Assembly: GCA_030682415.1 (NCBI GenBank)
Contig: JAUXOE010000038.1
Coordinates: forward strand, 1-36,263
Reading direction: 5' to 3'
Length of the DNA stretch: 36,263 nucleotides
Source: Parvibaculum sp.
GTDB lineage: Bacteria; Pseudomonadota; Alphaproteobacteria; Parvibaculales; Parvibaculaceae
The notes beneath the pieces were generated by a model. That model worked only from the letters and a program-made list of their open reading frames with translations. It ran no database searches and was not told the DNA's origin. Positions 3,040 to 25,185 of this stretch are shown piece after piece (the stretch's first letter is position 1; each line of letters begins with the position of its first letter). Made by a program: the position numbers and the translations under genes.

Positions 3040-3205
3040 CGGGGCTCTCCGGTTGGCTTGAAGCGATTGCCAAACGAATTGCAACCCGTGGGCCAGCCGA
3101 AGCCGACCCGGATTTCCTTTCATTTCAAGGTGTTAGGGAAAGGGTGCCGCGCGCGCCCCGGCAGCCCTTGCCGCGCCGGTTAAGGAATCGGGAGGAATCT
3201 GCCGC

Positions 3206-3937
3206 CTACCACGGCTCGGCATGGGTGCGCAGGTCGATTTCGAAGCTCCAGGCGGCCGGCTTCTGGCCGTGGAGATAGACATAGGCATCGGCGATGCCTT
3301 CGAGATCGATGAGGCGGCCCTCCTGCGCACGCTGGGCGGCATATTGCGGCGCCATGTTGTGAAGTTTCTCGCCGTCGATGCCGCCATCGACCACCACATG
3401 GCCGACATGGATGCCTTGCGGCCCAAGCTCCTTGGCAGCACTTTGCGCGAAGTTGCGAAGCCCACCCTTGGCGGCGGTGAAGGCGGCGAAACCTTCGCGG
3501 CCCCGCATGCTGGCCGATGCGCCGGTGAAGATCAGCGTGCCTGTGCCCCGCGGGCTCATGTGGTCGGCCGCCTCGCGGGCGAAGAGAAAGGCGCCGAACA
3601 GACAGACACGCCAGCAACGCTCGAAATAATCGGCCTCCATGCCAGAGATCTTGCCGATCATGTTGTTGCCGGCGTTGTAGATGGCGAGATCGACCGGACC
3701 CGTCTCGTCCGCCTGCCGGAACAGCGAGACGACATCGACCTCCTGCGTCACGTCGCAGACGACGGGCGTCGCCTGGCCACCGCCATCGCGGATCGTGTCG
3801 ACGACCGCCTCGAGTTTTTCGGCCGTCCGCCCGGCGACGAAGACATGAAGCCCCGCGCCCGCTACGCGCCGTGACAACACCGCGCCAAGCCCGTTGAGCG
3901 GACCGACACCCGCGACGATTGCTGTTTTGGTGGACAT
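3206..3937 (-). CDS. SDR-family oxidoreductase (atypical, catalytic Tyr replaced by Phe)
   Basis: MSTKTAIVAGVGPLNGLGAVLSRR cofactor motif, YNAGNN, FTGASASMRGREGFAAFTAAKGG (FxxxK where YxxxK is expected). Start chosen at the internal Met. Confidence 0.85.
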   Translation of the reverse strand: MSTKTAIVAGVGPLNGLGAVLSRRVAGAGLHVFVAGRTAEKLEAVVDTIRDGGGQATPVVCDVTQEVDVVSLFRQADETGPVDLAIYNAGNNMIGKISGMEADYFERCWRVCLFGAFLFAREAADHMSPRGTGTLIFTGASASMRGREGFAAFTAAKGGLRNFAQSAAKELGPQGIHVGHVVVDGGIDGEKLHNMAPQYAAQRAQEGRLIDLEGIADAYVYLHGQKPAAWSFEIDLRTHAEPW

Positions 3938-15042: not shown

Positions 15043-15050
15043 CACCCCAC
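15043..15050. repeat. Left copy of 8-bp target site duplication CACCCCAC
   Basis: Identical to 18077-18084, immediately outside the TIR. Confidence 0.9.
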
Positions 15051-15067
15051 GGTAGTGTCTCAGTTTG
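15051..15067 (+). repeat. Left terminal inverted repeat
   Basis: GGTAGTGTCTCAGTTTG. Confidence 0.92.
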
Positions 15068-15149
15068 AGGGGCGATAACGGCATGGCAAGCAGAATTGCC
15101 TTTTCCTCGCCAATAACCCAATCTCCCACATGGGTAGGGGGGATTCGGG

Positions 15150-16007
15150 ATGGCCGCTTTGTCTGTTCCCATCGTACTGAGATACGATGGTCTGGACGCC
15201 GAAAACCATCAAGTCGATCTGGCGGATTTAGGCACGTCCTTATTGGGGGCGTCCCGCATGATCGCCCTGTCTGCAAACTTCGCTTACACCGGACGTGTGA
15301 TTACGCGAGCGCCAGCACTCCAAGTGCGGGTTCTTGGCGGCATCGCCAAAGACGGCTGTTGGCAGATTCCCATTTTCATAGCCCCGCTCGTGCCGGTTTT
15401 GCCGGACATATACCAAGCAATTTCATCAAACCTTGTGGGCGCTCTAGTCAATTGGACCTTGGCGAAGTTCGGCGGGAGACCGAAGGAGGCCGAAATGTTT
15501 AAGGCAATTACCGATAAAGCGATTGAGTCAAATGAGCAAATATCTAAACACGCTATTTCGGAAATGCGGCGGCTGGCTGAAAGCGTGGTTGATGCTCAGA
15601 GGCCAGCAGCAAAGAAACTCGTGAAGCCCGTTGGCGAAACATGCGAGACGCTTAGGATTGGCGATATCCCGGAGGCCATAGAAGTTGATCGGCCAATGAA
15701 AGACGCAATTTCCGAGGACGGAAACATTGAGACTTTGGACGAACGAAACTATGTGGTTTTGTTCTCGGAGTTAGACCGGCGGAACAAGACGGGCAAGCTT
15801 TCAATTAAAGACGATCCTCAGCCACAAAAGCGTTACTCCTCAGTTATCACTGATCCGAAAATCGACGAGACAGACAATATCTATGCAGAGTCTTTGAGCG
15901 CAGAGAAGTGGATCACTGTTCGCGGAAAGATGCAGCTCAAAGATAATGAACCTTATCGCATTTACATTTCAGCCGGGGCGGCTGGATCGGCTAAAATTGC
16001 CGGGTAA
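15150..16007 (+). CDS. uncharacterised passenger protein (285 aa) of the transposon
   Basis: ORF with G-rich RBS-like GGGGGGATTCGGG before ATG. Hydrophobic stretch WQIPIFIAPLVPVLPDIYQAISSNLVGALVNW, polar/charged middle, beta-rich-looking C-terminus. Lower-GC codons than flanking genes. Confidence 0.75.
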   Translation: MAALSVPIVLRYDGLDAENHQVDLADLGTSLLGASRMIALSANFAYTGRVITRAPALQVRVLGGIAKDGCWQIPIFIAPLVPVLPDIYQAISSNLVGALVNWTLAKFGGRPKEAEMFKAITDKAIESNEQISKHAISEMRRLAESVVDAQRPAAKKLVKPVGETCETLRIGDIPEAIEVDRPMKDAISEDGNIETLDERNYVVLFSELDRRNKTGKLSIKDDPQPQKRYSSVITDPKIDETDNIYAESLSAEKWITVRGKMQLKDNEPYRIYISAGAAGSAKIAG

Positions 16008-16010
16008 GCT

Positions 16011-16844
16011 TTAGTCCGCCAACTGAGCAATGTCTTCAAGAGACCATACACGATCCGAAACACCCGCTTCCATGGCCGGGGTAACGCGAAGCGTCTTATG
16101 GATTTTCGCGAAATTGTAGAACATGAAGTGCAGGGCCACGGCGTGGGCGTGGTTTTCGATCTTCTTTGAGAAGCCGTTGGTCAGGCGCGTGAACCGGCGC
16201 ATGTGCATCCGCATGGTGAGGTTCTGCCGCTCAACATAGGACGTGGAGACGTGCTGGCGGTCGGGATTGCCCGTGACGCGCTCTTTCTTCGCGCCCTTGC
16301 AGATAGCCGGGCTGTAGCGGCGCTGGCCTTCCGGGGCGGTGCCGTAAATCTTGATGAGGGTGGCGAAGTCCACATCGTCGCCAAAGGCATCCTCGACCGC
16401 GCCAAGGTACGGGCCGTGCCCGTCGCTCGTAAGTTGGACACGGTTCGCGAGCCGGGACGCCACGTCCTGCATGAACTCGTGAGCATATTCCGCGTCACGC
16501 CCGCCAATGAGATAGGAGACGATCAGCTTGCTATCGGCGTCGATTGCGGTCCACGTCCACGTGTCGCCAGCGCCTTCCGGCGCGGCCTTCGCGGCCGGGA
16601 CGTTCTTTGCCTTCGCGTAGGTGAAGCTCCAAATCTCGTCCACCTGCACCCGCTGAGACTTCACGTTGCGCACGTGCTCGTCGTGATAGGCAGCGCAAGC
16701 CGTGCCGACATCAATCAACAATTTTGTCACCGTGTTGATGCTCACGTCCGCCAGCCGAGACGTGGCCCGGAGGCTCATGCCTTCGCAGAGCATTCCGAGG
16801 ATTTGAGCGCGCTTCTGTGTGGACAGCTTGTTCATGTCAATCAA
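16011..16844 (-). CDS. IS1-like DDE transposase, single ORF
   Basis: N-terminal HTH (RAQILGMLCEGMSLRATSRLADVSINTVTKLL), QVDEIWSFTY, TAIDADSKLIVSYLIGGRD, LTSDGHGPY, STSYVERQNLTMRMHMRRFTRLTNGFSKKIENH. The alternative start MNKLSTQ is at 16835. Confidence 0.88.
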   Translation of the reverse strand: MIDMNKLSTQKRAQILGMLCEGMSLRATSRLADVSINTVTKLLIDVGTACAAYHDEHVRNVKSQRVQVDEIWSFTYAKAKNVPAAKAAPEGAGDTWTWTAIDADSKLIVSYLIGGRDAEYAHEFMQDVASRLANRVQLTSDGHGPYLGAVEDAFGDDVDFATLIKIYGTAPEGQRRYSPAICKGAKKERVTGNPDRQHVSTSYVERQNLTMRMHMRRFTRLTNGFSKKIENHAHAVALHFMFYNFAKIHKTLRVTPAMEAGVSDRVWSLEDIAQLAD

Positions 16845-16977
16845 TGTAGGGAGTCAAGCATGAGCGGTCAAGCATAAAGTTCAATTATGTGGGCATAGCT
16901 CCGCTAACCCATTGGCGGGACTCGCAAAATGGCAAATTGACTTTTAAATCAATCGGTTATATAAGAAAGGGGTTCGG

Positions 16978-17051
16978 CCCCCACGGCAGGATTCGGACCT
17001 GCAACCTCCAAGTTGGGACTTCGGCGCTCTATCCAGTTGAGCTACGTGGGG
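16978..17051 (-). tRNA. tRNA-like gene carried in the transposon, putative anticodon CCC (Gly by codon); possibly degenerate or non-canonical
   Basis: Minus strand CCCCACG-TA-GCTC-AACTGGATA-GAGC-G-CCGAA-GTCCCAA-CTTGG-AGGTT-GCAGG-TCCGAAT-CCTGC-CGTGGGG-G (74 nt). Full cloverleaf spacing with paired acceptor, D and T stems. Anticodon stem has a G-U pair and an A-C mismatch; position 55 is C; CCA is not encoded. Confidence 0.7.
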
Positions 17052-17067
17052 TAACCGAATGGGAATG

Positions 17068-17085
17068 GCCCGGCCAAAGCCGGGC
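17068..17085. other. Short GC hairpin next to the tRNA-like gene
   Basis: GCCCGGC-CAAA-GCCGGGC. Confidence 0.55.
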
Positions 17086-17136
17086 TTAGTCCCTCCTAAC
17101 GGATGGCGGCCAGCACATCGCTTGTCTCCTTTCCAG

Positions 17137-17679
17137 CTAGAGCAATGACCCCGGGTCTTCTGGTTGCGAGCCAGACCCGGGGTTTTCTTTGTTGCGTTGA
17201 TCCTCAGGGACAAAGAACCAAAGGTCTTTGCCTTCGCGGCGCACTAGACCGTCTCGTGAAAGCCGGTAGAGCGACATCCCTGCTGTTTTTTCGTGAAATT
17301 TGGAGCGCGTCTCGGCTTCGATCTTGCTGCGTATCTCGGCAGCTTTCATGGGAGCCGGATAAGCCTCGGCTAGTAGCTCAAGGGCTCGATTCTTGAATGG
17401 CGGCGGCTTAGCGACAGCTTCTCGCACATTGGGGCCGTGATGATGGACCACAAGAAAATCGGAAGCGGCAAGCGTCAGCCCGCGCTCTTCATTTAGCCAT
17501 GTAACAGGCAGGCCGAGCGCCCGCGCAGAGACGGTTAGATCGGAAAGCTTGTCGTCGATGCGACGAATCTCTTGCTGGTGCTCAGCCACGCGCTGTTTTC
17601 GGAGGATCAGAAGAGAATGGCGCTCCTCCGTAACCTCCTCAGCAGCCTTGATTTTCCAGCTTTCTTGATCGTCTGACAT
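17137..17679 (-). CDS. uncharacterised passenger protein, N-terminal coiled coil plus C-terminal winged-helix-like domain
   Basis: Start at internal MSDDQESWKIKAAEEV (ORF extends to 17736). Heptad-like RHSLLILRKQRVAEHQQEIRRIDDKLSDL, then RALELLAEAYPAPMKAAEIRSKIE...GMSLYRLSRDGLVRREGKDLWFFVP. Confidence 0.65.
   Translation of the reverse strand: MSDDQESWKIKAAEEVTEERHSLLILRKQRVAEHQQEIRRIDDKLSDLTVSARALGLPVTWLNEERGLTLAASDFLVVHHHGPNVREAVAKPPPFKNRALELLAEAYPAPMKAAEIRSKIEAETRSKFHEKTAGMSLYRLSRDGLVRREGKDLWFFVPEDQRNKENPGSGSQPEDPGSLL
17148..17190 (+). terminator. Rho-independent-type terminator, + strand orientation
   Basis: ACCCCGGGTCT (17148-17158) pairs with AGACCCGGGGT (17173-17183), followed by TTTCTTT on the + strand only. 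Confidence 0.55.
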
Positions 17680-17754
17680 AGCAATCCCGCCGCGCCTCTG
17701 TGCCAAGAACATACACAGGAACGAGTAGGGGTGCAAGAAATCAGTAGGGATTTC

Positions 17755-18000
17755 CTATTTTGATTCCCATCGAGCCTTGGCGGCCTTGCTGGCGATCTCC
17801 GATTTCTTCTCTGCTGACAGCTTTTCGGCCCGCGCCTTCCCGCCCTTCAAGCCCCCTTTCCGGCCCAAGGCGACCGCCGCAGGGTCTTTCCCCTCGTCCG
17901 GGTCTTTCTCCACGGCTTCGCCAGTCGCAATATCTGCGATCAGCTTGGCGAGCTGGTTTGTGTCCCTAGGGCGCTTCGGTTTTTTGGCGGAGTCTGTCAT
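17755..18000 (-). CDS. small basic passenger protein (81 aa) with KGG-type repeats
   Basis: MTDSAKKPKRPRDTNQLAKLIADIATGEAVEKDPDEGKDPAAVALGRKGGLKGGKARAEKLSAEKKSEIASKAAKARWESK. Lys/Ala/Gly-rich, histone-H1/stress-protein-like composition. Confidence 0.75.
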   Translation of the reverse strand: MTDSAKKPKRPRDTNQLAKLIADIATGEAVEKDPDEGKDPAAVALGRKGGLKGGKARAEKLSAEKKSEIASKAAKARWESK

Positions 18001-18059
18001 GCGTCTAATATCGCATGGGAGGCCGGAAGGCCCAAGGGCCGCTCAAAAATTCTCAGCGG

Positions 18060-18076
18060 CAAACTGAGACACTACC
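18060..18076 (-). repeat. Right terminal inverted repeat
   Basis: CAAACTGAGACACTACC, reverse complement of the left TIR. Confidence 0.92.
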
Positions 18077-18084
18077 CACCCCAC
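18077..18084. repeat. Right copy of 8-bp target site duplication CACCCCAC
   Basis: Identical to 15043-15050. Confidence 0.9.
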
Positions 18085-25099: not shown

Positions 25100-25185
25100 T
25101 GGTGCCCCTGGCCGGACTCGAACCAGCACGTTGTTGCCAACAACAGATTTTGAGTCTGCCGCGTCTACCATTCCGCCACAGGGGC
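25100..25185 (-). tRNA. tRNA-Leu (anticodon CAA), CCA encoded
   Basis: Minus strand GCCCCTGTGGCGGAATGGTAGACGCGGCAGACTCAAAATCTGTTGTTGGCAACAACGTGCTGGTTCGAGTCCGGCCAGGGGCACCA; class II variable arm. Confidence 0.96.

Follow-up and report, generated by a model that had tools for sequence, protein, structure and literature searches.

An IS1-family transposon carries a tRNA-like gene with a conserved body and a divergent anticodon arm

Phages are known to carry transfer RNA (tRNA) genes, the purpose of which is under debate. Changes in the anticodon loops of phage tRNAs are predicted to confer resistance to host tRNases (PMC10264068), which is the nearest precedent for the gene described below, together with the use of tRNAs by some phages to evade defences (PMC11555353). 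Allo-tRNAs (Mukai et al. 2017, reviewed in PMC7609411) are odd bacterial tRNAs, one of which is reported to lie by a transposon-related gene, and a link of the group to mobile elements or toxin-antitoxin systems is suggested there. Here we describe a 74-nt tRNA-like gene (16978..17051, minus strand) in a 36,263-nt stretch of Parvibaculum sp. DNA, referred to hereafter as the window, where it is carried by a 3,026-bp transposon of the insertion sequence (IS) family IS1. Passenger transposons and mobile-element tRNAs are known separately; their repeated union and the accompanying anticodon pattern are not known to have been described. The initial sequence-only reading of this DNA knew of no IS1-type element with a tRNA passenger, and we likewise found no published description of an IS element carrying a tRNA gene in the open-access full-text literature searched.

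The locus resembles passenger-carrying IS elements of the IS1 family in its DDE_Tnp_IS1 transposase, inverted ends, 8-bp duplication and extra genes, and differs in that the passenger is a tRNA gene. With phage tRNAs (PMC10264068) the element tRNAs share a location on mobile DNA, a conserved body and a changed anticodon loop; in contrast, they sit on a small transposon, their anticodon stem is often mismatched, and some have stop-reading anticodons. Allo-tRNAs likewise have anticodons mismatched to the body, but their acceptor branch is of 12 bp in an 8/4 or 9/3 arrangement and their variable arm is long (PMC7609411), whereas the window tRNA has a plain 7/5 class-I fold with a 5-nt variable loop and so falls outside that group.

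The transposon (15051..18076) is bounded by perfect 17-bp terminal inverted repeats, GGTAGTGTCTCAGTTTG on the left (15051..15067, plus strand) and its match on the right (18060..18076, minus strand), and by an 8-bp target-site duplication, CACCCCAC, the two copies of which lie at 15043..15050 and 18077-18084. An 8-bp duplication is likewise present in the related elements L054, L053, L056, L055, L110, L244 and L108 (L numbers denote loci). In four congeners the site is empty, the joined window flanks aligning straight across at 89–92% identity, such that the whole unit, tRNA included, was inserted once. Taken together, the terminal repeats, the duplicated target and the unoccupied site in the congeners identify the tRNA as transposon cargo, as had been proposed from the sequence, and both its cargo status and its conservation are well supported. 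The 277-aa DDE transposase (16011..16844, minus strand) passes the cut-off of PF03400 (E 1.6e-8); NCBIfam transpos_IS1 is its best NCBIfam match (E 2.8e-18) but falls under the curated cut-off. Assignment of the carrier to the IS1 family thus draws on the PF03400 domain, the inverted repeats, the 8-bp duplication and the clean empty site.

The tRNA gene is called by ARAGORN as tRNA-Gly(ccc) (16976-17051, minus strand) and by Rfam RF00005 (16978-17051, minus strand), where it scores 51 bits (E 2.9e-8) and the gathering threshold is 29. It reads CCCCACG TA GCTC AACTGGATA GAGC G CCGAA GTCCCAA CTTGG AGGTT GCAGG TCCGAAT CCTGC CGTGGGG G, with the anticodon CCC and no encoded CCA (CCG comes next). 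Both calls agree with the minus-strand cloverleaf first recognized from the letters alone, in which every listed conserved base is present, as are all of its listed oddities (C1-G72, G73, G32, A31.C39, G29-U41 and C55). Score and ARAGORN call place the gene in RF00005 with an anticodon stem that is incompletely paired (the A31.C39 mismatch and G29-U41); the same stem is paired in the homologue L053, in the normal register, which makes the alternative fold with a bulged G29 offered by the sequence-only reading unnecessary. Nor does the glycine label of that reading hold. A tRNA-Gly(CCC) body has G1-C72, C2-G71 and U73, against C1-G72, C2-G71 and G73 in the window; the host tRNA nearest to the body is a tRNA-Arg, not a tRNA-Gly, and the first 26 nt (the acceptor-to-D half) show no difference from those of a phage tRNA-Arg(UCU), a rare gene present in only two other viral contigs. 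On body similarity we rejected a cellular tRNA-Gly as the source. An ordinary tRNA-Gly(CCC) is also present in the host genome, on contig C196.

Two homologous elements, L054 (genome G008, same genus) and L053 (a phage contig), were found via flanking DNA or the neighbouring open reading frame (ORF) ORF199 and not via the tRNA; their cloverleaves exclude chance and assembly error as the origin of the fold. Acceptor, D and T pairs are all intact in the window, L053 and L054, so neither broken stems nor a missing locus speaks against the gene. One acceptor pair is altered on both sides between the window and L054 (C6-G67 to U6-A67), a compensatory change of the kind anticipated by the sequence-only reading; the invariant anticodon that it also anticipated was not borne out, the lineage having CCC, CCC and GCU. 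Window and L054 differ at 7 of 57 body sites, without breaking a single stem pair, and at 11 of 17 sites of the anticodon arm (Fisher p 5e-5). Flanking DNA has diverged by about 8–10%, and the probability of at least 11 anticodon-arm changes at that rate is 7e-8. Comparison with the phage tRNA-Arg L083 gives the same picture (9/17 anticodon-arm sites differ, against 6/57 elsewhere; p 5e-4). The window tRNA can thus be classed neither as an ordinary tRNA-Gly nor as a mere pseudogene, and these alignments show acceptor, D and T arms that are conserved by selection, beside an anticodon arm that has been released or is diversifying. Two further searches gave nothing specific: the anticodon arm pairs with its own element no better than shuffles do, bar the trivial self-complement, and a DNA pattern running from TTGTTCAT to the T arm returned chance matches only in 385 alphaproteobacterial genomes.

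Our preferred reading, to which we assign a probability of roughly 45%, is that the tRNA is cargo of an IS1 transposon with a selected body and a freed anticodon arm, kept for a role of the body, probably in a toxin or defence conflict. Simple decay is a distinctly improbable account, in which host or phage tRNA genes are occasionally trapped between the transposon ends and then deteriorate, anticodon arm first. It would fit the missing CCA, the anticodon mismatch, the varied base at position 73 (N73) and the Rfam score, which is the lowest among the 34 tRNAs of the 3-Mb draft genome; however, the body differences leave every pair intact, one of them being changed on both sides, and capture recurs at the same place. 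Moreover, the anticodon arm has changed faster than the flanks while the body has stayed paired, unlike neutral decay, such that decay alone is no explanation. Where the sequence-only reading had left the choice between a decayed tRNA and one maintained by the element, the structurally constrained body argues against the former in its simple form, and the gene is indeed held by an IS1-type element. L053 (3122-4729) is a transposase-deleted element with intact ends and an 8-bp duplication, adjoining phage-type structural genes. Of the three tRNAs its own is in the best state, with A73, an encoded CCA and an anticodon stem that pairs throughout, and the persistence of this tRNA after loss of most of the transposase indicates that service to that enzyme is not the sole reason for keeping it.

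A family sample of 189 distinct transposase loci contained 13 with a tRNA at most 1.6 kb upstream of the transposase, between the ends wherever ends are visible (host tRNAs outside the ends, as at L125, L089, L112, L134, L126, L239 and others, were left out of the counts). Nine lie 90–160 bp upstream on the same strand; the other four (L056, L108, L308 and L312) are on the opposite strand, ~1.1 kb away. On the transposase tree the presence of a tRNA takes about 12 changes by parsimony, and this distribution shows that related transposons have acquired tRNA genes repeatedly, either of a stem-damaged class or of a class with anticodon UUA. Tsuneonella rigui holds four copies of one element tRNA; a family-wide DNA search around Tsuneonella did not find the element in a second species.

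The class-I element tRNAs carry the anticodons CCC, GCU, ACU, UCC, CGU and AGU on Arg-, Gly- or Glu-like bodies. Among eight of them, broken pairs number 0/128 in the acceptor, D and T stems and 7/40 in the anticodon stem (Fisher p 3e-5), a statistic biased by the preference of ARAGORN for tRNAs with good bodies, from which the three-homologue comparison is free; at the 80% threshold, ARAGORN gave hundreds of false calls. The six class-II tRNAs are Ser-like (L056 9678-9766, identical to L085; L108 2830-2928; L308 3430-3516; L312 307-404) or Leu-like (L244 2776-2859; L275 2787-2872), and all have the loop CTTTAAA with the anticodon UUA and, although the six elements are diverged, a perfect or near-perfect anticodon stem. 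Because the synthetases for Ser and Leu bodies do not read the anticodon, these tRNAs look built as ochre suppressors, reading UAA. The transposons that carry them come from alphaproteobacteria and phage contigs.

The UUA class bears most directly on a live, if unlikely, alternative, that of a recoding tRNA whose charging enzymes ignore or tolerate the anticodon, so that a "wrong" residue is inserted. UUA tRNA-Ser and tRNA-Leu would then suppress UAA and UAG, and the Arg-like body of the window with its CCC would put arginine at GGG, aiding the expression of element or phage genes or altering host proteins. The confinement of UUA to Ser and Leu bodies in six diverged elements favours such a role, for the UUA tRNAs especially, as do A20, C35 and G73 of the window tRNA, which agree with the arginine identity read by arginyl-tRNA synthetase (ArgRS). 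Also in favour, E. coli uses allo-tRNAs of mismatched anticodon in translation (PMC7609411). Class-I anticodon stems are nevertheless mismatched and the bases at positions 32/33 odd. A possible target is the stop codon of ORF81, a small basic protein typical of the transposon family (17755..18000, minus strand): it is TAG in 4/4 Ser-UUA elements, and in the window ORF81, its TAG and ORF199 share one frame that is fused in L053. Against this, TAG is also common in ORF81 homologues without a tRNA (60/144), the window tRNA, having CCC, is unable to decode the TAG of its own element, and readthrough in the UUA elements would gain only 7–15 residues. As a general purpose of the UUA suppressors, ORF81 readthrough is therefore unsupported. 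Suppression by these tRNAs would mean that nonsense-suppressor tRNAs can spread in bacteria by transposition.

Returning to retention of the tRNA for its body, the RNA would be transcribed together with an upstream leader, excised and folded like a tRNA, and would be kept because tRNA enzymes recognize the body rather than for ordinary sense decoding. Most likely it would counter enzymes that cut anticodons or deplete tRNAs, either as a decoy or as a tRNA proof against nucleases, working alongside the ribonuclease (RNase) toxin, abortive-infection (Abi) and antitoxin cargo of these elements, with UUA members additionally acting as nonsense suppressors. Conflict or suppression is thus the function that we infer for the element tRNAs. 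Related elements retain transposase, ends and ORF81 and exchange the remaining cargo, which in tRNA-bearing members includes PemK/MazF (L108, 4882-5307), an NYN nuclease (RNase; L110, 2139-2750), Abi_2 / PD-T4-5 (L078, 5968-6591), a SocA/Panacea antitoxin-like gene (L053) and DUF5343 (L275, under its cut-off); related elements without a tRNA have RES/Xre or HTH/M78 pairs. L214 and L055 are also among the family members with varied toxin, Abi or antitoxin cargo. Several observations weigh against this interpretation. L094, L244, L056, L308 and L319 bear a tRNA without a recognised toxin or Abi gene, and the DUF7946 cargo of the window is without known function; N73 can be G, A, C or T and many of the genes do not encode CCA, a poor fit to a charged tRNA; and the class-I stem statistics rest in part on the ARAGORN preference, the bias-free comparison of window, L053 and L054 comprising three sequences. 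The system is compact, and simple tests could separate codon supply, nuclease evasion, suppression and addiction.

The leader in question contains a mini-ORF (17086..17118, minus strand) encoding MCWPPSVRRD before its stop, with a tandem AGG-AGG and a strong Shine-Dalgarno sequence, AAGGAG, just upstream; directly 3′ of it lies a GC-rich hairpin, GCCCGGC-TTTG-GCCGGGC (17068..17085, minus strand). Window, L054 and L053 share the form ATG TGC TGG CCG CCA TCC GTT AGG AGG GWC TAA, a single base being different in L054 and L053, and the hairpin is intact in both. Searching the 189 loci for a Shine-Dalgarno sequence, ATG, 0–6 codons, AGR AGR and a hairpin returned seven (the window, L054, L056, L108, L312, L319 and L159), of which 6/7 bear a tRNA, an association spotted post hoc among loci that are not independent. 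L159 has MQTRRD, a stop and the hairpin without a tRNA, and relaxing the pattern brings in L313 and L316, neither of which has one. In viral contigs the pattern gave 16 matches, mostly in unrelated coding sequence.

Such an arrangement could serve as regulatory punctuation, tRNA fold, leader mini-ORF and hairpin forming a 5′ control region that would govern, by being cleaved or attenuated, how strongly the transposase or a neighbouring gene is expressed. Many elements are indeed ordered leader ORF, hairpin, tRNA and, 90–160 bp on, transposase on the same strand, and leader and hairpin are strongly conserved, even in the three loci lacking a tRNA. We nonetheless consider this very improbable, given that L056, L108, L308 and L312 have their tRNA ~1.1 kb away and encoded on the other strand and that the L053 tRNA outlasts its transposase.

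The seven leaders also have the anatomy of CreT RNA toxins, which need a Shine-Dalgarno sequence, a start codon, two rare Arg codons and a stem-loop (PMC8501985). The window leader is like CreT in its Shine-Dalgarno sequence, short ORF, tandem rare Arg codons and stable hairpin, and differs in having six codons before AGG-AGG. A doubtful extension of the conflict idea is an RNA conflict module in which a regulator gene would be joined by a CreT-like minigene (SD-ATG-AGR-AGR-hairpin) tying up rare Arg tRNAs and by a partner tRNA, conserved in its body but anticodon-diversified or stop-reading, acting as antidote, decoy or suppressor; the module would move between transposon backbones as one unit. 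A shared ~265-aa protein, without a firm Pfam match, accompanies the leader–tRNA unit, often in divergent orientation (L056 8605-9393, L108 3166-3951, L308 2357-3154, L312 642-1442, L319 208-1035).

The remaining genes of the window transposon flank this core. ORF199 (17137..17736, minus strand; likely start ATG near 17679) encodes a weakly winged-helix-like protein with no Pfam match above cut-off; its homologues adjoin the tRNA in L054, L053 and the Tsuneonella element, and where relatives of ORF199 lie outside the transposon (L219, G245), no tRNA was present. The TAG that separates the in-frame ORF81 and ORF199 lies within 17137-18000, and the L053 counterpart is a single fused ORF of 176 aa (3198-3728). 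At the left end a variable cargo gene (15150..16007, plus strand) encodes 285 aa with DUF7946 and DUF7947 (Pfam E 8.5e-47 and 2.4e-14); different genes take its place in L054, and L056 lacks it. Outside the transposon the window holds a second, ordinary-looking tRNA gene, a tRNA-Leu(CAA) at 25100-25185.
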